Source: a virus
Strand: one strand, 5' to 3'
Length of the DNA: 34,605 nt
Virus record (IMG/VR): IMGVR_UViG_3300044961_000248
Coordinates: 1 to 34,605 of that record
In this document: positions 3,751-29,591 of the stretch, piece after piece
Layout: each line of letters opens with the position of its first letter
How positions within the stretch are numbered: position 1 is the stretch's first letter
Notes under the pieces: model-generated
What the model was told of the DNA's origin: nothing
The model's database searches: none
The model's input: only the letters and a program-made list of their open reading frames with translations
Program-made: the position numbers and the translations under genes

Positions 3751-4451
3751 CTTTGACGCGACGCAAGAAGAATTCGATACGCGGTGGCGATGACTTTGGC
3801 GAGACGCGTTGCAATGCGGGCGACCTGTGGGTCATCGGCGGAGTTCACCGGCTCATCATCGGCGATAGCACCGAACCGGCGACGGTGGCGCGGCTGATGG
3901 ATGGAGAGCGGGCGGCGTTCAGCGAGATTGATCCGCCATACGACATGGCTGCCGATGTTCAAGCAAGCGTTTGCGCTGCGTCAAGTGGCACGATTGCATT
4001 GTGGGGAATGGCGTTTGAGTTGTGGCCTGTCTGTCAATGGTGGGGGAAATGGCCAGAACTTGATCTGATTTGGCGCTTTTACTTCGGGAGGCTGTACAGC
4101 AAGGCGCGTCCGTTTTGTCACCATCGCAATATATGGATGTTTAATATTGACTATTACAATGCTGGTTGGCGAGGCAAAAACGGCATTCCGCCATCCACAT
4201 TTTTTGAAGCAGCGTATGTCTCGAAACATCACAAACACGAAAAGCCCGTTGCGTTGTTGCAAACTATTCTCGAAATTTACAGCCCGCCTGAAGCGCTGAT
4301 CTACAGTCCTTTTCTCGGCTCAGGCACCACGCTCATAGCCGCGCACAGGACAGGGCGGCGTTGTTACGGCGTCGAGATCGAGCCGCGCTACGGCGATGTG
4401 ATCTTGCGGCGAGCGGAGGCCGAAGGGCTGACGGTGGAACAGGCAGTTTAG
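3747..4451 (+). CDS. Beta-class DNA methyltransferase (N6-adenine or N4-cytosine)
   Basis: The product has 234 residues. It transfers a methyl group from S-adenosylmethionine to an exocyclic amino group in DNA. Motif IV, DPPY (62-65), comes before motif I, FLGSGTT (189-195), followed by RCYGVEIEP. This order defines the beta class. The N-terminal segment GDLWVIGGVHRLIIGDST (25-42) is typical of phage methyltransferases that often carry an upstream ParB-like domain; here that domain is absent, and the protein is shorter than usual for this group. KHEKPVALLQ (163-172) before motif I fits the family. The gene overlaps the coiled-coil gene upstream and lies 8 bp before the DpdA-like gene, so the two modification enzymes are probably co-expressed. 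DPPY cannot tell N6A from N4C. Confidence 0.85.
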   Translation: MTLTRRKKNSIRGGDDFGETRCNAGDLWVIGGVHRLIIGDSTEPATVARLMDGERAAFSEIDPPYDMAADVQASVCAASSGTIALWGMAFELWPVCQWWGKWPELDLIWRFYFGRLYSKARPFCHHRNIWMFNIDYYNAGWRGKNGIPPSTFFEAAYVSKHHKHEKPVALLQTILEIYSPPEALIYSPFLGSGTTLIAAHRTGRRCYGVEIEPRYGDVILRRAEAEGLTVEQAV

Positions 4452-4459
4452 AGAACGAT

Positions 4460-5266
4460 ATGACGTGGGATGTTCGACAGCAAACGCTCTTTGACGATCC
4501 GGCGTTGACGGCTATCGCTGAACGTGCGGCGCTTCGAATGCGGCGAACGAAACAGCCTGCTCCTAGTTCGCCCGTCGATCTGATCTTTACTTTTTCTGGC
4601 GGAAACGGATTGTGCTGCATTGCGCGGAGTGCGGGCATGCTCTACGGTGTGCGATCAACCGATAACGCTTGTGTGTATTGCAATCCGGTTTTTATCGACA
4701 ATCATTATCATGCCTACGACCACGCGCACCACGTTTCGGTAGTTCGACAGCACCGGCCCAGGTACGCCACTGTGCGCGATGTAATGACACGCGAGCAATG
4801 CGCGCAGGCGGATATTGCGTATTATGAATTGTCGCAGATCTTAGATTGGGCTGAAGAACTTGCGGAGTACGCAGAGCACGTGATTGTCATTCCTAAGTAT
4901 GATTGTCTGGATCGCATTCCAGAATCGTATATGCTCGGTTATAGTGTGCCAACGTCGTACGGCGGAACGCCATTACCGATCAGCGCATTTCGCGGACGCC
5001 GTGTGCATCTCCTCGGTGGCGAACCACGATTGCAGGTCGAATACTGGCGAGAACTTGGCTCGGATGTGGTCAGCATTGACAACAACTACATTCAGCGCAA
5101 GTCGCAATTCGGCATGGTGCTCACAGAAACATTTGAGTGGAAGCAACTGTATGAGTATGGAGACTTAGGCTCATTGCCAAATCCGTGGTATGTGTGCTTT
5201 GCAATGAATTGCGGGCGCGTTGTGCAACTGTTTGGCCAAGAAGATCGTATGAAGGAGAACGCATGA
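4460..5266 (+). CDS. Putative DpdA-type transglycosylase (7-deazaguanine insertion into DNA)
   Basis: The product has 268 residues. I chose the ATG at 4460, just after the methyltransferase stop, because upstream in-frame starts lie inside that gene. The pattern matches what I know of tRNA-guanine-transglycosylase-like TIM barrels of the DpdA families: DLIFTFSGGNGL (40-51), RYATVRDVM (101-109), VIVIPKYDCLDRIP (141-154), MLGYSVPTSYGG (158-169), VHLLGGEP (182-189) and DVVSIDNNY (202-210). Segments like 'HLLGGxP...Q...W..L...VVSxDxN' recur in that superfamily. DpdA enzymes exchange guanine in DNA for a 7-deazaguanine base. D149 and D207 are candidate catalytic aspartates. The next gene is a YhhQ-family precursor transporter, overlapping by 4 bp, which strongly supports this reading. 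A DpdA2/DUF6610-type assignment is my guess. The substrate base cannot be read from the sequence. Confidence 0.62.
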   Translation: MTWDVRQQTLFDDPALTAIAERAALRMRRTKQPAPSSPVDLIFTFSGGNGLCCIARSAGMLYGVRSTDNACVYCNPVFIDNHYHAYDHAHHVSVVRQHRPRYATVRDVMTREQCAQADIAYYELSQILDWAEELAEYAEHVIVIPKYDCLDRIPESYMLGYSVPTSYGGTPLPISAFRGRRVHLLGGEPRLQVEYWRELGSDVVSIDNNYIQRKSQFGMVLTETFEWKQLYEYGDLGSLPNPWYVCFAMNCGRVVQLFGQEDRMKENA

Positions 5267-5784
5267 GATCCTTTTTGATTGCCGCGCTGTACTGTTTGTC
5301 CGTGTTCGTTGCCAACCTGCTTGCCGGCGTGCTCATTCCGCTGCCGTTCTTCGGTCTGTTGTCGCTCGGAACGGTTGCGTTTGGCGCAACGTTCACCTTG
5401 CGCGATTATGCGCATCAGTATGGTCGAACGTTCGTTTATCGCATGATCGCTGTTGCCGCCCTCGTTAACGTCATCGGCGCACTCCTGACCGATACGCCGT
5501 TGCGTTTTGTCATCGCATCGTTTATCACGATTGTGATCGCCGAATCGGTGGACACCGAAGTGTATCACCGTATCAACGCTGCATGGATGTATCGTGTCAT
5601 GGGCAGCAACGCTGTCAGCATTCCGACGGATAGCGTGTTGTTTGCGTTACTCGCGTTTGGCGGTACGATGCCCTGGATTGCGGTCGCCGCGATCATCTGG
5701 GCTGACATTGTCGTGAAAACGCTGGTTGGCACTCTTGTTGGCGCAGTGCGCGTGTTTCGCACCTCGCGCACCACAGCACCATGA
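5263..5784 (+). CDS. yhhQ: YhhQ/VUT-family queuosine precursor transporter
   Basis: The product has 173 residues. The start at 5263 overlaps the preceding stop (ATGA) and has GAAGGAG upstream. About five or six hydrophobic segments are visible, with family hallmarks ANLLAG (17-22), TFTLRDYAHQYGR, ESVDTEVYHRI and SNAVSIPTDSVLFALLAFGG near the end. The length is near that of phage and actinobacterial YhhQ members, and shorter than many cellular ones. The family moves 7-deazapurines (preQ0, preQ1, queuine) into the cell. In a phage next to a DpdA-like gene, the likely role is to supply the modified base for DNA. No FolE, QueD, QueE or QueC homologue is present in the window, so the phage would depend on import or host synthesis. 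Confidence 0.82.
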   Translation: MRSFLIAALYCLSVFVANLLAGVLIPLPFFGLLSLGTVAFGATFTLRDYAHQYGRTFVYRMIAVAALVNVIGALLTDTPLRFVIASFITIVIAESVDTEVYHRINAAWMYRVMGSNAVSIPTDSVLFALLAFGGTMPWIAVAAIIWADIVVKTLVGTLVGAVRVFRTSRTTAP

Positions 5785-5813
5785 TTACACTACGGAGCAG
5801 GATGCCACTTGAA

Positions 5814-5854
5814 GTTTTGGAGAGCCAAAACGATCATTATGATCGTTTTGGCTC
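5814..5854 (+). promoter_or_regulatory. Overlapping alternative hairpins upstream of the terminase genes
   Basis: A near-perfect 15-16-bp stem pairs 5822-5837 with 5839-5854. A competing shorter stem pairs GTTTTGG (5814-5820) with CCAAAAC (5825-5831), which uses part of the left arm of the larger stem. The two cannot form together. No T-run follows. The site lies between yhhQ and terS and may be an attenuator, a processing site or an operator. Confidence 0.45.
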
Positions 5855-5871
5855 GCTAGGGCCGAAATGCT

Positions 5872-6453
5872 ATGAGCAAAGAATCAACAACATTAATCAA
5901 GCCGCTCACAGCTAAGCAAGAAGCGTTTGTTGCGCATTATTTGCGTACGTGGAACGCGACTGAATCCGCACGGGCAGCGGGATACCCGGAACGTTCAGCG
6001 CGGCAAATTGGATCAGAAAACTTGTCAAAACCTGGCATTCAGGCCGCCATTCGCGAACGTTTGAATGAATTGCACATGTCTGCCGACGAGGTTCTGTCTC
6101 GCGTGACGGCTATTGCTCGTGGCTCGCTCGCTCCGTTTCTGCGCCGTGGCACGGAGGGCGATCTTATTGGTTTTGATCTCAGCGACGATCAGTCGTTGGG
6201 ACTACTCAAAAAAGCCAGCGTTACGGAGCGACGCTTAAGATCAGGCGATACAGAACGCACGGTGACGATTGAGCTTTACGACGCCCAGGCCGCGCTCACG
6301 AAACTCGGCGAGCATCACAAGTTGTGGGGCGACAAGAGCCTGAACGGCTTGATGAAGCTGATCGACCTGAACAAGCTGACGCCGGATCAGCTTGAGCGCA
6401 TTGCGAATGGAGATGATCCGCTTGCTGTTCTCCTCACTCCAACTCAGGGCTAA
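5872..6453 (+). CDS. terS: Terminase small subunit (terminase_2 type)
   Basis: The product has 193 residues. Residues about 12-60 carry the classic helix-turn-helix start of this family: LTAKQEAFVAHYLRTWNATE, SARAAGYPERSARQIGSENL and KPGIQAAIRERL. Small terminases bind the packaging site on phage DNA as a ring and hand it to the large subunit. Residues 70-170 continue with AIARGSLAPFLRRG and a helical C-terminus (QAALTKLGEHHKLWGD) likely to form the oligomer. The ATG at 5872 has only a weak ribosome site, but the homologous region begins soon after, so an earlier start is unlikely. The gene overlaps the large subunit start by about 45 bp, the usual pairing. Confidence 0.9.
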   Translation: MSKESTTLIKPLTAKQEAFVAHYLRTWNATESARAAGYPERSARQIGSENLSKPGIQAAIRERLNELHMSADEVLSRVTAIARGSLAPFLRRGTEGDLIGFDLSDDQSLGLLKKASVTERRLRSGDTERTVTIELYDAQAALTKLGEHHKLWGDKSLNGLMKLIDLNKLTPDQLERIANGDDPLAVLLTPTQG

Positions 6454-8098
6454 GGCTGCGCTGGAGCTGCGGCGGCGCGGCGGCGTCGTTGATCGATTCT
6501 CCGCGTATCGCTTTGCGCCTGAGCGCTACATCGTTGATCATCTCGGCTGGCAGCCATGGCGCGGTACGGCGCAACACCCCGGCCAGGCTGACATTCTCGA
6601 CGCTTACGCCGATTCGCTGCGCCTGCAACACCTGCGCCGCGACGAACCCGACGCCTACCCCGATCCCGTACCGAACATCATCAGGATCGAAAGCGGTCAC
6701 GGCATTGGCAAAACGACGCTGCTGGCGGGGATTGTTTCGCACTTCTTTGACTGCTTTGAGAAGTCGATTGTCTACGCTTTTGCGCCAGGCTATGAGCAGA
6801 TTAATGACCTGCTCTTTAAAGAGATCCGCCTCCAGCGCAGCGGTAAGGCTTTGCCGGGCCGCGTGCTGGAGACGCCTGAGATCAAGGGCGGCCCGGCGCA
6901 CTTTGTGAAGGGCCGCGCCACGAATGATGCACACGGACGCGGCACCGAGCGCGTGCAGGGCCAGCACGGGCCATACTTGCTCTTTGTCATTGATGAGGCT
7001 GAAGGCGTGGCCGACTTCGTTTACGACGCTATCAAGAGCATGGCCAGCGGCGGCATTGCAATCGTGGTTCTCGCCGCCAACCCGCGCACGCGCACGAGTC
7101 GCTTCCATCGCCTGGCCAGCGGGCGACTGGTACAAAACTTTCGGATCTCCTGCCTCAATCATCCGAACGTGCTCCACAATCGCCCGCTCATTCCCGGTGC
7201 CGTTGAGCGCGCATATGTCGAGACGATGATCGACGACGGAGAGACACAGCATTGTGAGGTGGTGAGCCAGCACGACCCTGATAACCACACGTTTGAGCTA
7301 CCCTGGCAACCGGGCGTGATCTACCAGCCTGATGCTGAGTTTCTGTTTCGCGTGCTGGGCTTTGCACCGGCGAACATCGCCAGTAATACGATGTGCCCGG
7401 TCGGTCGGTACGAGGCCGCCAAGTCGCGCACTCCGGTGCCGGAACTGCCGTCCGTGGCACGCATCGGTGTTGACGTGGCTCGCTTTGGCGACGATGCTGG
7501 CGCGGTCTACGTGCGCCACAGTGGTGCAGCCTGGCGGGCTGAGCGTCTAAGTAAACTTGACACGACTGAGTACACTCAGTCGGTGAAGCGACATGCGCTA
7601 CGCCTTGCCAGTTTAGGTGTGAACTCGCTACACGTCCGCATCGACGGCGGCGGCGGGTTCGGTGGCGGTGTGATTGATCAACTTCGACGTGATCATGATC
7701 TGCGCCACGCTTTCAGCGACTTTCAGGTGCTGGAGGTCAACAATAACAGCACGCCACGCGACGACAAGGCGTTTGCCGATCTCGGCACCGAGATGTACTG
7801 GCACGCCGCCGAGTCGCTAAAAGCGCTGGCGTTGGTGCGCCCGCCAGATGCGCTGGAGTTTGATCTATGCGAACGCACATATGAGTGGATGAAGGTGCGC
7901 GGACATGATGTGAAGCAACTGGAGCCAAAGAAGGCGTACAAGAAGCGCCACGATGGGCGCAGTCCTGACGACGGCGACGGCTTTGCGTTGGCCGTGGCCC
8001 CGGATCATCTGTTCAGCCGTCAGGCTCAACCCGTCACCGGCGGCACACGCCAATCTACTACTCCCCCAGAGCTGCCCAAGCGAGGAAGACTCCGATGA
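6407..8098 (+). CDS. terL: Terminase large subunit (packaging ATPase and nuclease)
   Basis: The product has about 563 residues. It drives DNA into the prohead and cuts it. Counting from 6407: Walker A GHGIGKTT (97-104), Walker B LLFVIDE (191-197), then an RNase H-fold nuclease with GVDVARFGDD (D356), VRIDGGGGFGGG (D413) and SPDDGDGFALA (D521, D522, D524). All key acidic residues are present. The exact start is uncertain: TTG at 6392, ATG at 6407 and ATG at 6413 are in frame and none has a clear ribosome site; all overlap terS, suggesting coupled translation. The stop overlaps the next start (ATGA at 8095). The LSDxGI-like DVARFGDD signature is of the type seen in siphovirus and Mu-like terminases. 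Confidence 0.93.
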   Translation: MEMIRLLFSSLQLRAKAALELRRRGGVVDRFSAYRFAPERYIVDHLGWQPWRGTAQHPGQADILDAYADSLRLQHLRRDEPDAYPDPVPNIIRIESGHGIGKTTLLAGIVSHFFDCFEKSIVYAFAPGYEQINDLLFKEIRLQRSGKALPGRVLETPEIKGGPAHFVKGRATNDAHGRGTERVQGQHGPYLLFVIDEAEGVADFVYDAIKSMASGGIAIVVLAANPRTRTSRFHRLASGRLVQNFRISCLNHPNVLHNRPLIPGAVERAYVETMIDDGETQHCEVVSQHDPDNHTFELPWQPGVIYQPDAEFLFRVLGFAPANIASNTMCPVGRYEAAKSRTPVPELPSVARIGVDVARFGDDAGAVYVRHSGAAWRAERLSKLDTTEYTQSVKRHALRLASLGVNSLHVRIDGGGGFGGGVIDQLRRDHDLRHAFSDFQVLEVNNNSTPRDDKAFADLGTEMYWHAAESLKALALVRPPDALEFDLCERTYEWMKVRGHDVKQLEPKKAYKKRHDGRSPDDGDGFALAVAPDHLFSRQAQPVTGGTRQSTTPPELPKRGRLR

Positions 8099-14453: not shown

Positions 14454-14920
14454 TTAGCGTTACCGTTCGCATCATCGAGGGCGAAACACTGCGCGGCTTT
14501 GCGCGAGTTCGTAGCGGCTTTGCCGAAGCCGCTCGTGAGGTTATGCGGCCCGTCGGTGATCGCTGGCGCGATCACCTTATTGCCGAGACGCCACGCGGTA
14601 GGGGAGCGCCTCACAGCCCGCGCCTGCACGCCAACTACCAGACGACCGAGCGATACGACGAGCGCGGAGCGGAGTACCGCATCGCGAACGATGCTGATTA
14701 CCTGCCATTTGTCTTACGCGGGCGGGGGGCGGTGGTTGCCGGGCCGGGGAAGATGCTCCGTTTTGAAATAGATGGACAGGTGTTCTTTCGTAAGCGTGTC
14801 GGCCCGGCCAAGGCCAATCCGTATCCAGATCGCGTGCGGCGCGTGATGCAGGTGCGGATTGATGCGATGGGGCCGATGCTCGTGCAGGCGCTGGTACGGC
14901 AATACCGAGGGCGGCCATGA
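14450..14920 (+). CDS. HK97 gp10-like tail completion protein
   Basis: The product has 156 residues from ATG 14450, overlapping the preceding stop. HK97 gp10-like proteins join head and tail. Typical features are an N-terminal helix (FAEAAREVMRPVGDRWRDHLIAETPRGRGAP), a central beta segment with NDADYLPFVLRGRG and the conserved C-terminal VGPAKANPYPDRVRRVMQ. The length is usual. It ends in an ATGA overlap with the next gene. Confidence 0.77.
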   Translation: MISVTVRIIEGETLRGFARVRSGFAEAAREVMRPVGDRWRDHLIAETPRGRGAPHSPRLHANYQTTERYDERGAEYRIANDADYLPFVLRGRGAVVAGPGKMLRFEIDGQVFFRKRVGPAKANPYPDRVRRVMQVRIDAMGPMLVQALVRQYRGRP

Positions 14921-15441
14921 GTACGTTTTTAACCGCACAAGCAGCACTTCTTGCCGTGTGCCGTACCTATACGACGCCTGCGCCGAACGAAGACGATCCG
15001 CCGGTTATGGTGTTTACAGAGACAAACAGCAGCATTGATGATTGGCGCGTGCTGGATCGTCACGGTGCTCGTGCACTTGTCATTGAGATGGGCGGCGATA
15101 GTCTTGAGGGGGACAACCTTGAGGGGCGCGGATCACAAGGGATGTTGCAAGAGATCCATATCTTTACGGTGGTTGTGGCCCGCGACCTGGGCAACGGGCG
15201 CGACGGCCCAACGGCGATCATTGGAGCGCTGAAGATCGACGTTGAGGGATTGAAAGCGCATCTACGGCAGAACGACCGGCTAAACGTCGGAGCGCCGATT
15301 AGCCGCGCATGGCCAACGCGCACCGGGCGGCCCATCTTCCGCGCCCCCGGCGCACGCGAGATGGCCTCACACGTTCTGCAAGAGATTACCGTTACCGTCT
15401 GGTGCGAAAGCGACTATCCCGCCGGAGAGGGCGGCTATTAA
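14917..15441 (+). CDS. Tail terminator/completion protein candidate
   Basis: The product has 174 residues. The pattern of an N-terminal helix (TFLTAQAALLAVCRTY) followed by beta strands (ALVIEMGGDSL, QEIHIFTVVVARDL, ALKIDVEGLKAHLRQND, MASHVLQEITVTVWCES) fits the gpU/tail-terminator type fold, in which a hexamer caps the tail tube. The gene directly follows the gp10-like gene, as expected. No signature is strong enough to be certain. The next gene starts after a single base. Confidence 0.6.
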   Translation: MSTFLTAQAALLAVCRTYTTPAPNEDDPPVMVFTETNSSIDDWRVLDRHGARALVIEMGGDSLEGDNLEGRGSQGMLQEIHIFTVVVARDLGNGRDGPTAIIGALKIDVEGLKAHLRQNDRLNVGAPISRAWPTRTGRPIFRAPGAREMASHVLQEITVTVWCESDYPAGEGGY

Positions 15442-15442
15442 T

Positions 15443-16498
15443 ATGCGTATCCAAGTGATTCATCCTGGTAGTCCTTATAGCACCGCTGACGTGTACGACG
15501 GCCTCTGTGCCGGCCTACGCCACGCTGGTATGGAGCTGATTGAGTCGCGGCTTGACAGCGGACTTGCGTTCTTCGGCGATGCGCTCGATTTAATGACCGA
15601 GCGCTACGGCGAGCAAGGAATACCGGAGTGGGGGAAAGACGCATCAGCACTGGCAAGCGCGCGCATCATCGCACAGGCCGCCGCGCAGCGAACCATTGGC
15701 CAACCCGTAGATGCCGCGATTGTCGTAACAGGACTTAAACTCCATTGGAGCGTACCGATCACGCTGCGCGGCCTGGACATCCCCACGGCGCTACTCACGA
15801 CCGAGACGCCCTATGACGACCGCGAGAAAAAAATCAGCGCACTCTACAATCATGTGTTCACGCACGAGATGCGCGGTCTTGAACTCTTCAAGGGCCACCC
15901 GTCGCTGCACTACCTTCCGCACGCTTACAATCCTGAGCGCCACAAGCCGGGGCCGTGCGAGCCGGACAAAGCCGCAGACGTGTACTTCGTCGGTGCGGGC
16001 TTTCCTGAGCGGCGCGAGTTGTTCAGCAGTCTGGTTGCCGATCCGGCGATCCGATTTGAACTTCAGGGCGTGCTGTGGAAGGGTGATGCGCTCGATGAGA
16101 AAGGGATGCATCTGGGCGCGGTACCAAATAGCGAGGCGATCCGCTGGTATCGCTCTGCGGCGATCAACCTCAACCATCATCGCACAACCACCGCATACTT
16201 GAGCGGAGATCACATCCCAGCCGGTTCTGCGGTCTCGCCGGGGCCACGCGCATTTGAGATTGCGGCGTGTGGCGGCTTTCAGTTGTGCGACGACAGCCGA
16301 CCCGAACTGCACGCGATCTTCGGCGACAGCGTGCCGACGTATCGCGCTGGTAATGCCGAGGATTTACATGCCGCTGTGCACTACTGGTTGGCCCATCCTG
16401 ACAAGCGCGAACGCCGCGCTGCTGAAGCGCTCCAGCGCGTGCAAGAGCACTCGTGGTACCGTCGCGCTGCACAGATTCTGGAGGTTCTTTATGCCTAA
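15443..16498 (+). CDS. CgeB-like GT-B glycosyltransferase
   Basis: The product has 351 residues. It is a GT-B fold glycosyltransferase of the CgeB/Glyco_trans_1_2 type. The C-terminal nucleotide-sugar domain shows DVYFVGAGFPERRELF (179-194), the weak-conserved AINLNHHR (240-247) and the family hallmark GPRAFEIAACGGFQLCDD (267-284), where E272 should bind the donor ribose. The N-terminal half holds VVTGLKLHW and TALLTTETPYDD. The gene lies between tail completion and tail tube genes, with start 1 bp after the preceding stop, so it is produced with the tail proteins. A role in glycosylating a virion protein is more likely than wall or DNA glycosylation because of the operon, but the acceptor is unknown. 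Confidence 0.8.
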   Translation: MRIQVIHPGSPYSTADVYDGLCAGLRHAGMELIESRLDSGLAFFGDALDLMTERYGEQGIPEWGKDASALASARIIAQAAAQRTIGQPVDAAIVVTGLKLHWSVPITLRGLDIPTALLTTETPYDDREKKISALYNHVFTHEMRGLELFKGHPSLHYLPHAYNPERHKPGPCEPDKAADVYFVGAGFPERRELFSSLVADPAIRFELQGVLWKGDALDEKGMHLGAVPNSEAIRWYRSAAINLNHHRTTTAYLSGDHIPAGSAVSPGPRAFEIAACGGFQLCDDSRPELHAIFGDSVPTYRAGNAEDLHAAVHYWLAHPDKRERRAAEALQRVQEHSWYRRAAQILEVLYA

Positions 16499-17090
16499 CC
16501 ACCCGTCACAGCATCCGACCGAAGCGTATTGGCACGATCCCGATGGCGATACCGTGCCGGTCTTTCAGCGCCCTGGTGAGTTCGACCGGCTGATTGCGCT
16601 CTACCGCGAGCGCAAGCCTAAGCGCGTATTGGAAATCGGCACGTATTACGGCGGCACGCTGCGCCAGTGGCTCAAGCACGCGAACAAAGGTGCGACCGTC
16701 GTAAGTGTGGACACCTACGCGATCCCCCGCGCCGACAACCGCCGTCACTACGCAGCGTGGTGCCCGGTCGGCGTACGCTTGCTCTCCTGGCAGGGGAGCA
16801 GCCACGATCCGCACATTATTGCGCACGTCACAGCATCGGGGCCGTACGACTGGATCTTCATTGATGCCGACCACACGTTGAAAGCGGTAAGTCAAGACTG
16901 GCAGGTATACAGCAAACTCTGTGCCGAGGCTGGCCTGATCGCGCTACACGACATCCTCCCGGCACCGACGATGCCCGAGCTACAGGTGCATCGACTGTGG
17001 CCAAAGCTCGTGAAGTCCGAGGCACGCACTGAGGAGCTTATCGACGACTCCAACGCGAGCTGGGGCGGGATCGGGATTGTCTACCGATGA
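16491..17090 (+). CDS. Class I SAM-dependent methyltransferase (methyltransf_24/CmcI-like)
   Basis: The product has 199 residues; the start at 16491 overlaps the glycosyltransferase stop and follows GGAGG. Motif I is VLEIGTYYGGTL (46-57), motif II is TVVSVDTYAIPR (69-80), and motif IV is WIFIDADHTL (121-130), with GLIALHDIL further on. This set is typical of sugar or natural-product O-methyltransferases of the methyltransf_24/cephalosporin-hydroxylase-like group. No DNA-binding or DPPY/PC motif is present, so it is not a DNA methyltransferase of the usual classes. Lying between two glycosyltransferases, it most likely methylates the sugar they add. This is inference. Confidence 0.78.
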   Translation: MPNHPSQHPTEAYWHDPDGDTVPVFQRPGEFDRLIALYRERKPKRVLEIGTYYGGTLRQWLKHANKGATVVSVDTYAIPRADNRRHYAAWCPVGVRLLSWQGSSHDPHIIAHVTASGPYDWIFIDADHTLKAVSQDWQVYSKLCAEAGLIALHDILPAPTMPELQVHRLWPKLVKSEARTEELIDDSNASWGGIGIVYR

Positions 17091-17611
17091 AACTGACTCT
17101 GCACATCCTGACGGCCTGTAGTCGAACTGAAGGACTACCGGCGATTGAGCAGGCACTTGATTGTCTCCAGTCGGCACAACTTGATGTGCATTGGCACATC
17201 GGATATGACCTGGAGCGTCAGCACGTTGGCGGGCAAGCCGTGAAGAATGCGCTGCTCGACAGCCTACACGGCGATGGCTATGTCTGGATCTGCGACGATG
17301 ACAACCTGCCGCATCCCAATCTGGCTCTGCTGCCTGACATCTTAGAACCCAACGCTCCTGGTCTGCTCGTGGCTCAGGAGCGAGCGCCGGGACGCATTGT
17401 TGAGGCACGCCCAGAACTTAACCACATTGACGCAGCGCAAATCATTGTGAAAGCGTCATTGATCGGCGGCGAGCGTATCCCTGAAACGTACAACGGCGAT
17501 GGCCGATGGATCATCGCGCTCCATCGCCGCCTACATCTTTCGGCGGTCAGGCATGTCCTGGCTTATTACAACCGGCAGCGGTGGCCGGAACTATCTACCA
17601 CCACCATATAG
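17087..17611 (+). CDS. GT-A (family 2-like) glycosyltransferase, compact
   Basis: The product has 174 residues and overlaps the preceding stop by 4 bp. The N-terminal MKLTLHILTACSRTEGL and the acidic YVWICDDDNLPHPN (65-78; D70-D72 as the DXD metal/donor site) mark a GT-A Rossmann-like glycosyltransferase. A third block, WIIALHRRLHLS, may correspond to the acceptor side. The protein is shorter than common family 2 members (about 230-300), so it is a minimal domain. It forms a three-gene unit with the GT-B enzyme and the methyltransferase. It is followed 9 bp later by the tail tube gene. Confidence 0.72.
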   Translation: MKLTLHILTACSRTEGLPAIEQALDCLQSAQLDVHWHIGYDLERQHVGGQAVKNALLDSLHGDGYVWICDDDNLPHPNLALLPDILEPNAPGLLVAQERAPGRIVEARPELNHIDAAQIIVKASLIGGERIPETYNGDGRWIIALHRRLHLSAVRHVLAYYNRQRWPELSTTTI

Positions 17612-17620
17612 GAGACTTTT

Positions 17621-18079
17621 ATGGCAAACAGCGGAACAGGCCACGGGCGCACTGCCCGAATCTACGTAAAGACGAGCGGCGTGCCCAACTACGAACTCAT
17701 TCCGAAGTTGGGCAGCAACGGCACCGCCGTATCTGAAGCGGAAGTGCAAGAGCCGAACAACTTCCAGGAAGACACGGGCCAGGGCGACGTAACCAAAACG
17801 TACGTGCCGGACATCGGCGACTTCTCGGCATCGCTGACATTCTTCATGCAAGACGCAAACACCGATCACATCCAGTATCGGATGATGCAGGATGCACGCA
17901 ACCAGCGCCCGGTCGACGTGCTGATCTATCCAATGCTGGGCGCGGGGGTCGCAAACTTCTATTACAAAGCAAGTGTGTACTTGTCGCTCGGTTCGCTTCC
18001 GATTGGCGTATCGGCACTCATCTCGGCACAGTTTGAGATGCGTGCTGCTGGCGCAATCACGCTCAACACACCGGTATAG
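17621..18079 (+). CDS. Major tail tube protein
   Basis: The product has 152 residues, with GGAG before the ATG. It is beta-rich (ARIYVKTSGVPNYELIPKLG, DFSASLTFFMQDANTDHIQYRMM, RPVDVLIYPMLGAG, FEMRAAGAITLNTPV), as in phage tail tube proteins that stack as hexamers. It comes before a paired chaperone and a long tape measure gene, the fixed order in siphoviruses. A strong hairpin follows, which could favour this highly made product over the chaperone. Confidence 0.82.
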   Translation: MANSGTGHGRTARIYVKTSGVPNYELIPKLGSNGTAVSEAEVQEPNNFQEDTGQGDVTKTYVPDIGDFSASLTFFMQDANTDHIQYRMMQDARNQRPVDVLIYPMLGAGVANFYYKASVYLSLGSLPIGVSALISAQFEMRAAGAITLNTPV

Positions 18080-18094
18080 TCTACGCCGGGGCGC

Positions 18095-18134
18095 GTAACG
18101 ACGTTGGATGTCCCTTCCCCTCCAACGTCGTTAC
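18095..18134. terminator. 14-bp hairpin between tail tube and chaperone genes
   Basis: 18095-18108 pairs exactly with 18121-18134 around a pyrimidine-rich 12-nt loop. No T-run follows, so it may be a partial terminator or an mRNA-stabilising structure that sets the ratio of tail tube to chaperone. Confidence 0.5.
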
Positions 18135-18161
18135 ATTCGCCCACAATCGCAGGAGGGGGCG

Positions 18162-18599
18162 ATGGCATATTTAACACGCGAGCAGATTCTACTGTCTATT
18201 CCGTTACTTGAGGCAGACTACGAGGTCGGCGATGGCACAAAGGTGCGTATCCGCGAACTTATGGCAGAAGAGCGTATCGCCGCGCAAGAAGCGGGCGATC
18301 TTGATCCTGAAACGCGCCGCTTTCGTAATCTTGGCATGTTTTACGCATACATTGTGCGTTTCGGAGTGATTGCGGAGCCATCTGGAGATCCGCTCTTTAC
18401 GGACGCGGATCTTCCCGCACTGGCACGCGCACGTACGCCGATCCTGCCTCGCGGCGTACGCATTCGAAACCTGGGTGATGCCATTTGGTCTCTTTCGGAG
18501 GCCGACCCAGACTCGTTTCGTACAAGCAGTACTGAAACTGACGACGTGGGGAACGCTGACGCGGACAACCGCGCTGGGGATGGCAGAGGGGAAGATTGA
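18162..18599 (+). CDS. Tail assembly chaperone, G-like short form
   Basis: The product has 145 residues; I chose ATG 18162 because AGGAGGGGG lies upstream. Helical N-terminal region: LTREQILLSIPLLEADYEVGDGTKVRIRELMAEERIAAQ, with an acidic, low-complexity end (TETDDVGNADADNRAGDGRGED). The place between tail tube and tape measure is that of lambda gpG, which binds the tape measure during tail assembly. The second reading frame overlaps from 18370 to 18786 and has no good start, suggesting a frameshifted long form (see next entry). The acidic out-of-place tail after residue 119 looks like the default product when no shift occurs. Confidence 0.75.
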   Translation: MAYLTREQILLSIPLLEADYEVGDGTKVRIRELMAEERIAAQEAGDLDPETRRFRNLGMFYAYIVRFGVIAEPSGDPLFTDADLPALARARTPILPRGVRIRNLGDAIWSLSEADPDSFRTSSTETDDVGNADADNRAGDGRGED

Positions 18600-18786
18600 G
18601 CCTGTTGGCCGAGAGGCCGATTTGCTTGTGTCTGAGCGTGTTGGCATCATGGATCTCGCCGCCGAACTCGGACTAATTGATGATGAACTGTTAGCACGTA
18701 TGACAAGCCGACAGTACACCCGCTACCGCGCACGTGCTCTGGTAAAAGCCGCCGCCGCAAAAGTTGCACAGATAGGCCAACGATGA
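18520..18786 (+). CDS. Tail assembly chaperone, T-like extension made by probable +1 frameshift
   Basis: This frame (88 codons after the shift) continues smoothly from the G-like protein: ...SEADPDSF then VQAVLKLTTWGTLTRTTA. The join is at TTT-C (18516-18519): tRNA-Phe on TTT can slip forward to TTC, which skips C18519 and enters GTA CAA GCA. The fusion would have about 207 residues. Its last part (RVGIMDLAAELGLIDDELLARMTSRQYTRYRARALV) is helical. The stop overlaps the tape measure start (ATGA at 18783). An alternative is an independent start at ATG 18580, but no ribosome site supports it. Most such pairs in siphoviruses shift by -1; +1 and -2 cases are known. Confidence 0.62.
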   Translation, partial: VQAVLKLTTWGTLTRTTALGMAEGKIEPVGREADLLVSERVGIMDLAAELGLIDDELLARMTSRQYTRYRARALVKAAAAKVAQIGQR

Positions 18787-21700
18787 GCGACAAGATCGAC
18801 ATCCGCATCGGCTCATCCTTCGATCCGCGTGGCACGCAGGCAGCGGAAAAAGCAATCCGCGCACTCATGGATGCCGCCAGTAAAGCTGGTAGCGCGAGTA
18901 GTGGAGGCGGAGCGGCAAAAGCAAGCGAGGAGCAGGCCAAGGCCGCTCTGGCAGCAGCCAGAGCAATGACCGAGCAGGCCAAAGCTGCAATCGCACAAGC
19001 ACGCGCCGAAGATCAGGCGGCGCGTGCTTCAGCCGCTTCAGCAATTGCACAGCAGCGCCTTGCTCGCGAAACGGCCATGGCTGAAGCAGCGCAAACCCGT
19101 GCAGCGGCAGCGGCAGCGCGTTTCACGGCGCAGCAAGATCGCATGGCGAGTAGCGCACAGCGCACCGCCAGCGGCGTGGCGGTGCTGCCGCGCACCATTG
19201 CCGGACTCTCGCACGAGGCGGCAAACTTCGCACGGTCGGCGCTCTCCTTCACTGCCGTCGGCGCAGCGGCTAGCGCACTCGGCAGCGTCCTGGCCGGCGC
19301 GGTAGGGACGGCGGCAACGTTTGAACAAGCCATGGCGAACCTGGGCGCGGTGTCTCTCGCCAGCGCGGCCGATATGCAGGCGTTGGAGGAAGCGGCACGC
19401 ACTGCCGGCGCAACCACGAAGTTTAACGCCACAGAAGCCGCCGACGGGTTGACGTTCCTCGCGATGGCGGGCTATGACTCGCAAGAGGCCATCGCCGCGC
19501 TACCGGGCGTGATGAACCTCGCTGCTGCCTCAAACATCAGCCTGGCTCAGGCTGCGGACATTGCTTCAAACATCCTGACGGCATTCGGCAAGGACGCTAG
19601 CGAAACCGGAGCGCTCGTTGATGTGATGGCAAAAGCCGCCGCATCAGCCAACACCAACATCCCGCAACTCGGTCTTGCCATGACGTACGTGGCACCGATT
19701 GCGAAAGAGCTAGGGCAGAGCGTCGAAGTCAGTACGGCGGCCATCGGCGCTTTGAGCAATGCCGGCATTCAGGGAGAGAAAGCCGGTACGGCGCTACGGG
19801 CGATCTTTTCGCAGTTAGCGGAACGAGCTGATGAATTCGGCCTCAAAATCACTGACGCCCAAGGGCGCATGCTGCCGTTTGTGGATGTACTCGACGAACT
19901 TGCAAATGCCACCGAGAATCTCACCGATCTGCAACGTCTGGGATACTTTACGAAAATCGTCGGCGTTGAGGCGGCCGGCGCATTGGCAAACCTCGTCGCC
20001 AATCGTGACAGCGTGGCCGAGCTGGCAAATGAACTGGAGAACGCTGGCGGCGCGGCGCAGGCGATGGCGGATCGGCAACTGGAGACGCTTCAGGGACAGA
20101 TGACGCTCCTGAAAAGCGCAATCGACGGTGTTGCGCTCTCCATTGGTAGCATGCTCACTCCGGCGCTGACGACTGTGGTTAGCGATGGCCTGATTCCGTT
20201 CGTGCAGAAGGTGCAAGAGGGAGTCGATGCGCTGACCGCGCTTCAGGCAGCAAGCGGCGCCACGCAGCAAGCAGTTGCCACAGAAGCAGCGACGCTCGGT
20301 AAGAGTTACGAAGATTACGTTGCGCAAATTCGTGCTTCCGGCAAAGAACTCGAAGAACAAATCGAGCGCGATCATTTTGGCGAGATGGCACGCCAGGGCA
20401 TCCCCGCACTCAATCTGCTGCAAAACGTGCTTACGGGGTTTGCGCCACTGGTCAATCTTGCTTTTGAGCCAATTCCTGAAGCTGCGTACAACGCAGTCGC
20501 AGCGCTTGAAGCCACCGGCGCGACGGCAGATCAGGTTGCCGCCGCCATGGCCAGCATGCCGCCCGTCGTAGATGCGTACGGCACGGCGCTGGCATTCGCC
20601 GCATCGCAGGGCGCAGAAGCCGCAGGGATTGTGCAAAGGCTTGAAGGCGCTATCTACGGACAAGCTGCGGCAAGCCAGGCCGGACAAAGCGCTGTGATGA
20701 GCCTGCTGAACGCATTCAATCAAGGCGTCATTGGCGCTGATCAACTCCGCAGCGGCATGGACATTCTCAGCGCGGCGGAGATGCAACTCGGCAGCGCAAC
20801 CGACGAGACGCGCTCACAGGTGATTGCAGCTATCCAGGCGTTCGCCGAAAAGAGAATTACCAGCGCTGAATTGATCGTCATCCTCCAGAACCTGCGCACC
20901 ATTGAGGAGTTGGTGGCCGGAGCAACGCAAGAGGCTACCGCCGCAATTGACGACGACACGGCGGCCAAGGATGCAAACGCGGCAACCACCGATACATTGA
21001 TCGGCGCTATTACCGATGAAATTGTTGCAAAACAAGTGGCGGCGGTGGAAAGCCAGATCCTTGCGGAGCGGCAACGCGAACTGATGAGCGCGGCGCAGGC
21101 GGCTGCCGCTGGCTCAGGCTCGCTCCAGAGCGCCGCTGCTGCACTGGCCTCTCAGTTTGGCGTGAGCGAAGCCGAAGCACAACGGCTGATCGGCGCATTG
21201 CGCCAACTCGCAGCACTCGGCGGCGCGTCAGCAAAGGGCGGCGGCGGATACACGCCGCCGACAAGAGATCAGATCGGCGCAGCCGCCGCCGCTGCGTCCA
21301 CCGCACCACCAGGACGCCGTGGTGGCGGCGGTGGTAGGGGTAGGGGTGTTGGTGGTGGAGGGCGCGAACGTGTCGACGAGGCGGCAAAAACGGCAGAGCA
21401 ACTCGCAAAGATTCAGTCCGACGCGGGAAAAAAACTTGAAGAGATCAATCAACAAACGGCAGATCGGCTCGTTGAGATCGACAAGCGTGCCGCCGAAGCG
21501 CGTGCGGCTATCGCGGCAAAACTTGCCGAAGAGATGGCCACCAGCGCCGCCGACGCTGCATACAGGCGCGAAGCCAACGACTTAGAGATCGTCGGCGAGG
21601 CTGACGAAAAACGTCTAGCGGCATTGCATGCACGCGAGAGGGCCGAAGCCGAGGCTGCGCAACGTATGGAAGCGCTGCGGCAGGCAACTCTGGCAGCGAT

Positions 21701-24700
21701 TGAAGCGGGCGAGGTCGAGAGCGCAGAGGCGAATTACGAGGTGATGGCGGCGGCGATTAGAGAACGTGAGCAGCTTGATCAGGAGTACTATCAGCGCCAG
21801 GCTGAACTTGCGGGCGATCCAGCTTTGCTCGCTGAACTGGATCGACAGTATCAGGAGGCTGTCGCTGCACTCGAAAGCCGGGTCGCCACAGAGTTGGCGA
21901 TTGAAATGGCAAAGATCGCGGCAAAGAAACAGGCGCTTGACGAGGAAAAAGCTGCAGTCATTGCCAACGCCGAAGAACAAAAGATCGCGGTGATCACCGC
22001 CGCCGAGACTGCTGCCGCTGCCGTGAAAGGGGCAACGGAAGCACAGACACGCGCTGTTGCCGAGGGACTAAGCCGCCAGAGTGCGGCAGCCAACGATTGG
22101 GCGGCAGCCGTTGCGGCGGCGTCTGATCGCGCTATTGCAGCGGCGCAACGCGCTGCCGCTGCAATTAGCTCGATCCCGGCACCATCGGCAGCCGGTGGAG
22201 GCGGTGCGTCGGTTGGAGGTGTCGAAGCGCGAGCCGCAGGCGGTCCGGTCAAACGCGGCGACCCCTACCTCGTCGGCGAGCGGGGCCCAGAACTGATCAT
22301 CCCTGACAGCAATGGCACCGTGCTAGACGCCGCAAATACGCAACGCCTCGTGCGCGGCGCACAGCAGGCCGCACGCCAGCCCGTCGCGCCGCCATCTGCA
22401 CCAAGCGGCTCATCTGGAGGATCATCGGGCGGCTCATCTGGAGGATCATCGGGCGGCTCATCTGGAGGATCGTCGGGCGGCTCATCTGGAGGATCGTCGG
22501 GCGCATCAGGCGCGATGGTAAGCGGCGCACAACCGAGCGGAGCCGCCGCACTCCTGAGCAACGCCGTGCTGCTCTCCGAGGCCGACGGTGAGGCGCTGAA
22601 ACGATATAAAGAGAGCGTTGAGGCGATGGTCGGCACGCTCAACGCACTCGATGACCTCGCAGCGGCGACCGCACGCACCGCGCTGCGTAGCCCGATTGAC
22701 CCTGCGATGATCACCGCACTGGCAAGCGAGGCCAACGCCGTCGCGACGCTAATTGCATCAACACTCATCCCGGTCTCCGAGGAAGAGCAAGAGGCCGTTA
22801 GCCGCTACACCGATCTGGTAACGCAGTCGCTTGGCATCATTGCCGACGTGGCGGATCTGAGCCGCAACCTCGCCGATCCGACGCCACCGATTAACGGCAA
22901 CCAGGTGGCGATGCTTGCCGAGGCGGCGCGTGGCGTACTGGGCATCGTGGCAGATTTTCTCCATCCGCTCAGTATCGAGACAATGGTGCAGTTGGAGCGC
23001 TACGCCGATGCAAGCGAGATCAGCATTGGCATTCTGAGTGATGTATCGAAACTGGCGCGTGAACTGAGTGAGCCAACACCACCGATCAACGGCAACCAGG
23101 TGCGGATGCTTGCTGAGGCGGCGCGGGGCGTGACTGGTATCGTACGTGACTGGCTCTGGCCGACAACCGAGGAGCAGGTACAGGCACTCGAACACTACGC
23201 CGATGCCGCTGCATCCAGCATTGGCATCTTGAGTGATGTGGCGAGCCTGAGCAGGGAGCTAGGAGAGCCCACACCACCGATCAACGGCAACCAGGTGCGG
23301 ATGCTTGCTGAGGCGGCGCGGGGCTTGACCGGTATCGTACGTGACTGGCTCTGGCCGACAACCGAGGAGCAGGTACAGGCACTCGAACACTACGCTGATG
23401 CCGCTGCCGACAGCGTGGGCATCCTCAGCGACATTGCATCACTAAGCCGTGATCTTGTCGAGCCGACGCCACCGATTAACGTCCGCCAAGTGCGGATGTT
23501 GGCCCAAGCGGCTCAGGGCGTGACCGGCATCATTCGGGACTGGCTCTGGCCAACGACCGAGGAGCAGGCCGATGCACTGAGCTTGTACGCTAGCGCCGCC
23601 GCCGACAGCGTGGCAATCCTGACGGACGTTGCTGCGTTGAGCCGTGACCTTGTCGAGCAGACGCCGCCGATCCGCACGGCAACCGTACAGCGTCTGGCGC
23701 GTGAGGCGCAACAGGTGACCGGCATCGTGCGCAGTGCGCTGTTGCCGACCACCGAACAGCAGTCCGATGCGATCAGCCTTTACGCCAGCGCCGTTGCCGA
23801 CAGCGTGGCAATCCTGACGGACGTTGCTGCGTTGAGCCGTGATCTTGTTGAGCCGACGCCAGCAATCAACGTTGCGACCGTACGCCGCATTGCCGGACAC
23901 GCGCAGGATGTGAACAAGATTGTGCGCAGTGCGCTGGTGCCGACCACCGAGGCACAAGCGGAGGCAATCAGCCTCTACGCCAGTGCCGCTGCCGCCAGTG
24001 TTGGCATTCTGAGTGACACGGCGCAATTGGCGAGAGACCTTGCAGAACCAGCGCCGCCGATCTCGTTTGACATGGTCAGGCGACTGATCGGGCATGCGCA
24101 GGGCGTGACAAAACTGGTACGCGCCGCACTGGTGCCGACCACCGAACAGCAAGCCGATGCAATCAGCCTGTACGCATCGGCAGCGCAGAACAGTGTTGCT
24201 ATTCTGAGTGACACGGCGCAATTGGCGAGAGACCTCGCAGAACCAGCGCCGCCGATCTCGTTTGACATGGTCAGGCGACTGATCGGGCATGCGCAGGGCG
24301 TGACAAAACTTGTACGCGCCGCACTGGTGCCGACCACCGAACAGCAAGCCGATGCAATCAGCCTGTACGCATCGGCGGCGCAGAACAGTGTGAGCATTCT
24401 ATCGAGTGTTGCCGAACTGAGCCGGAGACTTGCCGAGCCGACGCCACCAATGAGCATGGCACAGGTTACCCGTCTCGCCGACGATGCCAAACGCATTACA
24501 GCGACGGTGCGCGGGCGTCTATTGCCAACCACTGAGGCTCAGGCCGAAGCCGTAGGGCTGTACGCATCGGCTGCGCAATCAAGCGTCGGAGCGCTCAAGA
24601 GTGTGCTCGATCTTTCCGGCAAACTATTTGCCGACTACGTAAGCCCCACCGATGCGCAACTCAACATGATCGCCAACGATGCGCAGCGCGTGGTGAGCGC

Positions 24701-25208
24701 GGTAGACCGTGCGGCGCGTGTGTTCAGCACCGAGGGGCTAGAGAAAGCGAATATGTACGCCACGGTGGTGGGGCAAACCTTCACCGCATTCAAAGACGGG
24801 CTGCTGTTTTTCGACGCATTAAAGAGCGGCGATTTTGGACTTGACCCCGCACGGCTCGCCACGTTTGAACGTGGCACGCTGGCGACGCTAGCGACGTTGG
24901 GACGGCTCGGCAACGCAGCGGCGGCGATCCCAGCGCAAAACATCGCCGCACTCCAGAACGCGACGGGCGCATTGACGGCACAGGCCGAGGCGCTGATCCG
25001 CCTGGCTGCCGTGCCATTTGACAACATCGGGGCGATCACTGGAGCATTCAGGCAGGCCGGGCTATCACCCGGAGCTGGCGGGGGAGGCGGCGGCGGCGGC
25101 GCAACAACTGTGAACGTGACGATCAATGCGGCTGCCGGGCAGGATGTGAATGCAATTGCCAACGCGGTGATCACGCGGATTAATAGTCAGATTGGAGCAA
25201 GACGATGA
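18783..25208 (+). CDS. Tape measure protein with eleven 65-residue repeats
   Basis: The product has 2141 residues. It sets tail length and may enter the host envelope. Residues 1-125 are Ala/Gln coiled coil. Residues about 179-425 carry the TP901-type core: ATFEQAMANLGAVS, TTKFNATEAADGLTFLAMAG, NILTAFGKDASETG and GEKAGTALRAIFSQLA. A Gly/Arg-rich linker near 843 precedes a long coiled coil (about 855-1130). GGPV (1153-1156) and YLVGERGPELIIPD (about 1162-1175), often near the C-terminus of tape measures, are here followed by a GSSGGSSG linker and about 715 residues of repeats. The end, TTVNVTINAAAGQDVNAIA, is the usual C-terminal strand. At about 0.15 nm per residue the tail would be about 320 nm, long for a siphovirus. 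Start overlaps the chaperone stop. Confidence 0.92.
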   Translation: MSDKIDIRIGSSFDPRGTQAAEKAIRALMDAASKAGSASSGGGAAKASEEQAKAALAAARAMTEQAKAAIAQARAEDQAARASAASAIAQQRLARETAMAEAAQTRAAAAAARFTAQQDRMASSAQRTASGVAVLPRTIAGLSHEAANFARSALSFTAVGAAASALGSVLAGAVGTAATFEQAMANLGAVSLASAADMQALEEAARTAGATTKFNATEAADGLTFLAMAGYDSQEAIAALPGVMNLAAASNISLAQAADIASNILTAFGKDASETGALVDVMAKAAASANTNIPQLGLAMTYVAPIAKELGQSVEVSTAAIGALSNAGIQGEKAGTALRAIFSQLAERADEFGLKITDAQGRMLPFVDVLDELANATENLTDLQRLGYFTKIVGVEAAGALANLVANRDSVAELANELENAGGAAQAMADRQLETLQGQMTLLKSAIDGVALSIGSMLTPALTTVVSDGLIPFVQKVQEGVDALTALQAASGATQQAVATEAATLGKSYEDYVAQIRASGKELEEQIERDHFGEMARQGIPALNLLQNVLTGFAPLVNLAFEPIPEAAYNAVAALEATGATADQVAAAMASMPPVVDAYGTALAFAASQGAEAAGIVQRLEGAIYGQAAASQAGQSAVMSLLNAFNQGVIGADQLRSGMDILSAAEMQLGSATDETRSQVIAAIQAFAEKRITSAELIVILQNLRTIEELVAGATQEATAAIDDDTAAKDANAATTDTLIGAITDEIVAKQVAAVESQILAERQRELMSAAQAAAAGSGSLQSAAAALASQFGVSEAEAQRLIGALRQLAALGGASAKGGGGYTPPTRDQIGAAAAAASTAPPGRRGGGGGRGRGVGGGGRERVDEAAKTAEQLAKIQSDAGKKLEEINQQTADRLVEIDKRAAEARAAIAAKLAEEMATSAADAAYRREANDLEIVGEADEKRLAALHARERAEAEAAQRMEALRQATLAAIEAGEVESAEANYEVMAAAIREREQLDQEYYQRQAELAGDPALLAELDRQYQEAVAALESRVATELAIEMAKIAAKKQALDEEKAAVIANAEEQKIAVITAAETAAAAVKGATEAQTRAVAEGLSRQSAAANDWAAAVAAASDRAIAAAQRAAAAISSIPAPSAAGGGGASVGGVEARAAGGPVKRGDPYLVGERGPELIIPDSNGTVLDAANTQRLVRGAQQAARQPVAPPSAPSGSSGGSSGGSSGGSSGGSSGGSSGGSSGGSSGASGAMVSGAQPSGAAALLSNAVLLSEADGEALKRYKESVEAMVGTLNALDDLAAATARTALRSPIDPAMITALASEANAVATLIASTLIPVSEEEQEAVSRYTDLVTQSLGIIADVADLSRNLADPTPPINGNQVAMLAEAARGVLGIVADFLHPLSIETMVQLERYADASEISIGILSDVSKLARELSEPTPPINGNQVRMLAEAARGVTGIVRDWLWPTTEEQVQALEHYADAAASSIGILSDVASLSRELGEPTPPINGNQVRMLAEAARGLTGIVRDWLWPTTEEQVQALEHYADAAADSVGILSDIASLSRDLVEPTPPINVRQVRMLAQAAQGVTGIIRDWLWPTTEEQADALSLYASAAADSVAILTDVAALSRDLVEQTPPIRTATVQRLAREAQQVTGIVRSALLPTTEQQSDAISLYASAVADSVAILTDVAALSRDLVEPTPAINVATVRRIAGHAQDVNKIVRSALVPTTEAQAEAISLYASAAAASVGILSDTAQLARDLAEPAPPISFDMVRRLIGHAQGVTKLVRAALVPTTEQQADAISLYASAAQNSVAILSDTAQLARDLAEPAPPISFDMVRRLIGHAQGVTKLVRAALVPTTEQQADAISLYASAAQNSVSILSSVAELSRRLAEPTPPMSMAQVTRLADDAKRITATVRGRLLPTTEAQAEAVGLYASAAQSSVGALKSVLDLSGKLFADYVSPTDAQLNMIANDAQRVVSAVDRAARVFSTEGLEKANMYATVVGQTFTAFKDGLLFFDALKSGDFGLDPARLATFERGTLATLATLGRLGNAAAAIPAQNIAALQNATGALTAQAEALIRLAAVPFDNIGAITGAFRQAGLSPGAGGGGGGGGATTVNVTINAAAGQDVNAIANAVITRINSQIGARR
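22407..22502 (+). repeat. Four tandem 24-bp repeats (Gly-Ser linker) in the tape measure gene
   Basis: Four 24-bp units at 22407, 22431, 22455 and 22479 encode (GSSGGSSG)n. They differ only at single positions. The result is a flexible 32-residue linker just before the long repeats. Confidence 0.93.
22569..24719 (+). repeat. Eleven tandem ~195-bp repeats in the tape measure gene
   Basis: Unit boundaries recur every 195 bp from 22770 (22770, 22965, 23160, 23355, 23550, 23745, 23940, 24135, 24330, 24525), preceded by a 67-codon divergent unit from 22569 and followed by a partial unit. A typical unit is PTTEQQADAI..LYASAA.. then a helix-rich block ending VRAALV. Units 8 and 9 share about 187 bp that differ at only a few positions (near 24013 and 24208); units 3-5 are also close. 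The outer units diverge more, the pattern expected when central units duplicate and are exchanged. Confidence 0.93.
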
Positions 25209-28643: not shown

Positions 28644-29591
28644 TTAGCGTCGTTTGGTACCATCAGTCACTGATCTGCGGATCATCCGCTCGATCGGTGT
28701 CTCGTTCACGCAGTGCGTGCTAAACCAGATGGTTTCGCGCTTGGCGTTGATGCGGCCTGCGCCGTTCGCCCGATTGCCATAGCCGCCGTTCGCTTCCCAC
28801 CGATACACGTTCCACCCCGGAGGAACAGGCCGTCCGTCGTCATAGCCGCAGATGGCAATGCGCAAACGAGGCGTGTCGCCGTTGGCGATAGCCCATGCCC
28901 ACGCCTCCTCCCACACGTTCGTTACGCCGTCGGCGTAAAGCATGCCGGTGTTAGGATACGGCGGATCAAGGAATACGGCGTTCGTGCCGCGCTGCATGAC
29001 AGCCGGAGTCACGACGCGCCGCCAGTCGCCGCACACGATCCGCATATGACGGAGGCGGCGTGCGTATTCCTCCAGCAGTTCACGCACCGTCATGCCGCCG
29101 GAGCGGTGCGAGCGGCGGTGTACGCCCATGCCCGTTCTGCCCTCACCACCCAGGTGAGGAATTTGCTGGTGCAGTTTGCCGGAGCGGGGGCACCAGCCGT
29201 CGCCGATCCACTGGCAGATCCCCCACAGCCACCAGCCCGCGATCTTGGTGTCGTAGTAATCCGGGTCGGTGCGGAGTCGAGCTTCGAGCGCATCGCGCTG
29301 CTCGACCAACCAGCGATGACGTGCATGCAAGTCAAGTTCGCTGACCGGCCAGTCAACCCCACGCGCTACAGCGTCAGGATCGGCGGCGATAGCGCGGTAG
29401 CAGTTGGTGATAAATCCGTCAGCATCGTTTACCGTCGTTGTCGCGCCGTCATCGTGAGCAGACAGCGCCCATACCGCTGTGCCTGCGAACGGCTCGATGC
29501 GTGCGGCAACGCGGCCCATGCGTTCATGCACCAGAGCGACGACGCGGCTTTTTCCGCCATGGTAGGGGAACAACGAAGGGATCGTCAGCAT
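28644..29591 (-). CDS. D12-class DNA adenine methyltransferase (Dam-like)
   Basis: The product has 315 residues. It methylates adenine N6 in DNA. Motif I with the preceding segment: PYHGGKSR (9-16) and IEPFAGTAVWAL (32-43); motif IV: FLDPPYPNTG (207-216). This order, motif I first, is the alpha/D12 class used by Dam and T4 Dam. A basic, His/Gly-rich insertion at 145-167 (LGGEGRTGMGVHRRSHRSGG) probably touches DNA. It overlaps the HAD gene upstream by 7 bp. It is the second DNA methyltransferase in the window and belongs to another class than that at 3747, and is placed with the early genes. Confidence 0.86.
   Translation of the reverse strand: MLTIPSLFPYHGGKSRVVALVHERMGRVAARIEPFAGTAVWALSAHDDGATTTVNDADGFITNCYRAIAADPDAVARGVDWPVSELDLHARHRWLVEQRDALEARLRTDPDYYDTKIAGWWLWGICQWIGDGWCPRSGKLHQQIPHLGGEGRTGMGVHRRSHRSGGMTVRELLEEYARRLRHMRIVCGDWRRVVTPAVMQRGTNAVFLDPPYPNTGMLYADGVTNVWEEAWAWAIANGDTPRLRIAICGYDDGRPVPPGWNVYRWEANGGYGNRANGAGRINAKRETIWFSTHCVNETPIERMIRRSVTDGTKRR

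Follow-up and report, generated by a model that had tools for sequence, protein, structure and literature searches.

Three overlapping late genes of an uncultivated phage, encoding two predicted glycosyltransferases and a predicted methyltransferase, are best read as a system for virion-protein glycosylation with methyl decoration of the glycan, and this reading, in which the tail tube is the most probable acceptor, is considered likely. The sequence analysed is a 34,605-base IMG/VR virus record, hereafter called the window. Support for the reading comes from gene content, protein domains, the predicted fold of the first enzyme (GTB), its conserved adjacency to tube and capsid genes, the clade structure of its relatives, the recurrence of the other two enzymes (MT and GTA) as a pair, and purifying selection. 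From these lines of evidence we infer catalytic activity, the acceptor protein, the order of the steps, methylation of the glycan and the biological benefit of the trio.

Gene order and predicted enzymes of the trio

The late genes of the window run from small terminase, large terminase, portal, S49-type protease, decoration-like protein and major capsid protein (Phage_cap_E match, 1.8e-11) to connectors, tail terminator, GTB-MT-GTA, tail tube, chaperone and tape measure, several of these names being assigned by position. All on the plus strand, the putative tail terminator gene (14917-15441) is followed by the genes for GTB (15443-16498, 351 aa), MT (16491-17090, 199 aa) and GTA (17087-17611, 174 aa), then by the tail tube gene (17621-18079), whose product is the proposed acceptor, and the tail assembly chaperone gene (18108-18599). 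The terminator stop at 15441 is immediately followed by the GTB ATG at 15443, the GTB stop (16498) and the MT ATG (16491) overlap by 8 bases with GGAGG before the latter, the MT stop and GTA start share ATGA (17087-17090), and the tube ATG at 17621 has AGGAGA on its 5' side. Within the trio, no promoter- or terminator-like sites were found above chance. The location between tail-terminator and tail-tube genes, and the overlapping order, that a preliminary description had claimed are confirmed by these open reading frames. Neither the tail terminator nor the tail tube protein of the window has a Pfam match above cut-off, and the two labels rest on position, on homologues and on a weak tail-tube match of one homologue (L036). 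Homologues of the tail terminator are found in 11 other loci, immediately 5' of GTB or a few genes away, and those of the chaperone in 13 other loci, 3' of the tube gene.

GTB matches Pfam Glyco_trans_1_2 (1.3e-24, 87.3 bits against a cut-off of 25), as do 39/39 of its relative records, and has a weak N-terminal match to DUF3880; a search of PDB sequences with the GTB profile gave no match. Its AlphaFold (AF2) model, built with 35 relatives, has a pLDDT of 94 and a pTM of 0.91 and can be superposed along its full length on PimA (298 aligned residues, Z 25.0, rmsd 3.1) and on other GT4 enzymes such as BshA and MshA, with E272 conserved in an R-x-x-E-I-A-A-C-G motif. A two-Rossmann, GT4-like GT-B fold is thus firmly predicted. 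Among the GT4-type fold matches listed, identity to GTB is just 9-17%, and the acceptors of the known enzymes (PimA, BshA, MshA) are small molecules or lipids. The acceptor cannot be read from the fold alone, since the DNA glucosyltransferase T4 AGT is also among the fold matches (Z 21.3). Residues invariant across the 35 relatives include H246, R247, R269 and E272, and a comparison of L009 with L011 (dN 0.014, dS 0.229) indicates that GTB is evolving under purifying selection in close relatives.

MT is a predicted class I SAM methyltransferase with matches to Methyltransf_24 (4.6e-12, 47.2 bits against a cut-off of 26.3) and RMNT_CmcI (9.4e-9), and a four-member MT profile gave weak matches in the PDB to O-methyltransferases (1e-5 to 1e-7), including 6g7d, MycE (3ssm) and YrrM. 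Classed as sugar-O-methyltransferase-like, it has its Methyltransf_24/CmcI-type domain in common with the sugar O-methyltransferases MycE, M. hassiacum 6g7d and CmcI/RMNT, a likeness that is confined to this domain. GTA itself has no match in Pfam, PHROG or NCBIfam; its relatives match Glycos_transf_2 (PF00535), and its DDD motif (D70-D71-D72, equivalent to DXD) is invariant in 6/6 of them. The GTA model is of moderate quality (pLDDT 68.5), with weak top fold matches to GlcAT-P and TarP (E about 5e-4 to 9e-4), and the assignment of this compact enzyme to GT-A is weaker than that of GTB to GT-B.

Linkage of GTB to tail tube and capsid genes

GTB is present in 39 uncultivated virus loci, which amounts to about 30 diverged GTB genes in phages other than that of the window. 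By tblastn with GTB and with GTA, no match was found among 50,697 cultured-phage records, and the window tube and window GTA retrieved no relatives as single-sequence baits. With an iterative tube-protein profile, a tube gene was detected in nearly all GTB loci (in L042 by eye). When near-duplicates and contigs ending too early (L025, L031, L035) are omitted and the window is not counted, 27 lineages have GTB on the 5' side of the tube gene, which it adjoins directly in 24/27 and from which it is separated by one gene in 3/27 (L009, L015, L037). In L009, the closest relative, this intervening gene encodes a methyltransferase of another Pfam family, Methyltransf_23.

The remaining GTB genes on sufficiently long contigs are located 3' of the major capsid gene (L012, L014, L016, L018, L021, L022, L024), either directly after it or with one ORF between, and L012, L014, L016, L018 and L022 carry both a tube-linked and a capsid-linked copy. 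The capsid-linked GTBs form a single clade (support 100/98) that was recovered in 200/200 bootstrap trees, and among contigs reaching far enough no GTB was found at sites other than tube-adjacent or capsid-adjacent ones. That GTB stays so close to the tube gene even in highly diverged phages, and that the capsid-side copies form a clade of their own, suggests substrate-specific pairing. Judged from gene linkage, this favours the earlier proposal that a virion protein is glycosylated and makes the tail tube the leading candidate. By eye, the ORF between the capsid gene and GTB in L021 and L022 resembles a GIY-YIG homing endonuclease.

Baits other than GTB served as controls. The tube bait found GTB in 12/12 loci, all already among the GTB-bearing ones, and the connector bait found it in every locus reaching the site, including partial genes in L063 and L065, with L061 left out because its contig ends too early. 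These two baits reach close relatives only, whereas the capsid bait reaches further. Among capsid-bait relatives of at least 45% identity, GTB is present in 9/9 and follows the capsid gene in 8/9, L077 (the same virus as L013) having a tube-linked copy only; L073 and L075, which the GTB search had missed, carry it 3' of the capsid gene. At 36% identity or less, GTB was found in 0/71 capsid-bait loci, several of which encode recognisable tube homologues and many of which are short contigs. GTB therefore belongs to the core genes of one lineage and is missing beyond it.

In bacterial genomes, five GTB matches were found, all distant (26-31% identity) and flanked by what look like chromosomal genes of glycosyltransferase or polysaccharide type, and hence no recent acquisition of GTB from a bacterial host is visible. 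That the trio might exist in relatives as host-derived pseudogenes, as the preliminary description had considered, is excluded for GTB.

Candidate acceptor residues were sought in the tube proteins. Y103 (34/34) and Y114 (33/34) are the sole near-invariant columns of the GTB-linked tubes, which are otherwise highly diverged, and 10 GT-less tubes have no tyrosine at the aligned positions. Because the GT-less tubes are locally misaligned by one residue (EYGP versus IYP, KYTG versus YYSG), this contrast is a lead and not evidence; the two residues might mark tyrosine O-glycosylation. Applied to the capsid proteins, this column test identified 33 clade-specific columns, none of which stood out as a candidate.

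The GTA-MT pair and known virion glycosylation systems

Comparison with relatives, proposed earlier as a check on joint gain and loss of the three genes, indicated that the trio as a whole does not behave as a unit, GTB being a core gene of one lineage; what holds together is GTA with MT, a separable pair that changes place and also occurs without GTB. In L027-L029, homologues of GTA and MT are adjacent in the order GTA-MT-connector-terminator-small ORF-GTB-tube, so that the same three enzymes are found in another order. An MT-like gene, GTA and GTB are consecutive in L037, and L025 encodes a GTA-methyltransferase fusion. The MT bait retrieved a GTA-MT pair without a GTB of the window family in L150, L151, L152 and L158, within late structural regions where the neighbours are readable; in L151 the pair is preceded by a different GT-B gene and a GT-A gene. 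As judged from these arrangements, GTA and MT form a mobile unit of their own, separable from GTB. At the corresponding position, other potential decorating enzymes are found, among them a hexapeptide acyltransferase next to GTA (L019) and a protein with a weak sulfotransferase match 5' of GTB (L032). In L153, a gene run at 2908-6624, between capsid and connector genes, contains a Methyltransf_24 homologue followed by a UDP-galactopyranose mutase gene, the latter suggesting galactofuranose in a virion glycan.

Mycobacteriophage glycosyltransferases, including Che8 gp110 and Corndog gp38, reportedly add glycans to the capsid and the tail tube, which shields the particles from antibodies (Freeman et al. 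2023, as cited in PMC12363180). By profile search, Che8 gp108 is a fusion of Glycos_transf_2 and Methyltransf_24 domains, and the window GTA profile matches its glycosyltransferase domain (22.5 bits, 3.9e-6). This gene overlaps into gp109 and gp110, opening one gp108-110 cassette. The cassette thus resembles the trio in its overlapping glycosyltransferase genes and its Methyltransf_24 domain, with gp108 alone having the composition of window GTA plus MT. However, it lacks a GT-B gene of the GTB family, gp109 and gp110 being unrelated to GTB, and it is located at the right genome end, away from the tube and capsid genes. The substrates reported for the Che8 cassette, capsid and tail tube (as cited in PMC12363180), correspond to the acceptors proposed for the window GTB and its capsid-linked relatives. 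No homology to GTB was detectable for the glycosyltransferases of Che8, Firecracker and Corazon; a Glyco_transf_25-type enzyme (Che8 gp110/Corndog gp38) was not found in the trio, GTB having no match to gp110 and the GTA profile giving 9 bits against gp110 in a smaller search and no match in a larger one. The public annotation of Che8 gp108 (L060, 3172-4347), 'glycosyltransferase', misses its second domain (Methyltransf_24/TylF).

Corndog carries an O-methyltransferase and three glycosyltransferase genes within its structural operon; the enzymes were not detected in virions, and in 2015 they were proposed to modify the capsid (PMC4351075). Firecracker, which has the same layout, was used in place of Corndog for comparison of cluster O at the sequence level. 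The overlapping genes of this cluster (Corndog gp35-38, Firecracker gp33-36) are trio-like, but they sit between portal and protease genes instead of between tail terminator and tail tube, and their products have no detectable homology to GTB, MT or GTA. Adjacent glycosyltransferase and methyltransferase genes in a late or structural context are common to the window and to cassettes of the Che8 and Corndog kinds. Relative to Che8 and Corndog, the window system follows the same logic with a different main enzyme, and its layout of enzyme beside proposed substrate is duplicated for the capsid in related phages.

Proposed mechanism and alternative acceptors

The trio would act as a late-expressed cassette on a virion protein of the phage itself, the likeliest being the tail tube subunit, whose gene follows the trio directly. 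Produced along with the tail proteins, GTB would transfer a sugar from a nucleotide-sugar donor onto the newly made tube subunit, GTA would add a further sugar to the glycan, and MT would O-methylate the glycan as a cap or disguise. The methylated disaccharide on a virion protein that had been suggested earlier is plausible. In related phages, GTB would have been duplicated and a copy placed beside the capsid gene for capsid glycosylation. The modification might benefit the phage by hiding the virion from binding molecules, by stabilising it or by promoting adhesion. More generally, and with somewhat less than even confidence, siphovirus cytoplasmic glycosylation may rely on a dedicated GT-B enzyme beside its own structural substrate, with the tube GTB duplicated once to give the capsid GTB, and with exchangeable modules (GTA-methyltransferase, other methyltransferases, hexapeptide acetyltransferase, possibly sulfotransferase) varying the glycan. 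On the main reading, likely virion glycosylation would extend from a few mycobacteriophages to uncultivated siphoviruses without a cultured-phage match, carried out by another class of enzyme. From the gene layout one can predict the structural protein that each enzyme modifies, which makes the pairing of enzyme and substrate directly testable, and one may ask what role sugar-coated tails have outside an animal host.

Gene adjacency is an indirect pointer to the acceptor, and late genes can serve other substrates too. The acceptor could be another late virion component, such as a decoration, baseplate or receptor-binding protein, with the site before the tube gene reflecting operon timing only, given that late genes are all co-expressed and that the Che8 cassette lies far from the genes of its substrates. 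The persistence of GTB-tube adjacency in highly diverged phages and the separate capsid-side clade make this unlikely.

Less probable still is that the glycosyltransferases add sugar to a modified base in the DNA, such as a 7-deazaguanine, and that MT methylates this sugar. The window does encode, at 4460-5784, a DUF6610 protein (1.7e-40) followed by a Vut_1/YhhQ-type transporter (1.6e-10), a gene pair that probably specifies 7-deazaguanine DNA modification, with DUF6610, we infer, acting like DpdA; 7-deazaguanines occur in phages that have DpdA-type enzymes, and YhhQ is encoded by some of these (PMC6884629). GTB also has its GT-B fold in common with T4 AGT. However, DUF6610 is found in just 3/23 GTB-bearing records and in 3/11 of those of at least 30 kb, many records being fragments, and the GTB copies track tube and capsid genes rather than DNA-modification genes. 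The low incidence of DUF6610 disfavours DNA glycosylation, which the preliminary description had named as its alternative.

Modification of the host envelope, for serotype conversion or superinfection exclusion, could be imagined from the polysaccharide- or glycosyltransferase-type neighbours, as read from sequence, of the distant bacterial GTB homologues and from the action of some phage glycosyltransferases on the host surface, but it is very improbable, since 0/3 trio proteins match a flippase (GtrA/GtrB) or gtr-type membrane glycosyltransferase in profile searches and the trio lies in the late tail operon at a conserved position beside the tube gene.

Several further features were observed. 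The control genomes gave a DUF6610 match too, in Haloferax volcanii. At 3747-4451 and 28644-29591, the window carries two DNA methyltransferase genes that differ in type (N6_N4_Mtase, MethyltransfD12), and a putative endolysin gene (1165-2730) encodes an Amidase_2 domain after a weak glycosyl-hydrolase-like N-terminal domain. The tape measure protein (18783-25208, 2141 aa) contains in its C-terminal half roughly ten or more tandem units of ~70-80 aa, which are variants of EPTPPINGNQVRMLAEAARGVTGIVRDWLWPTTEEQVQALEHYADAA.
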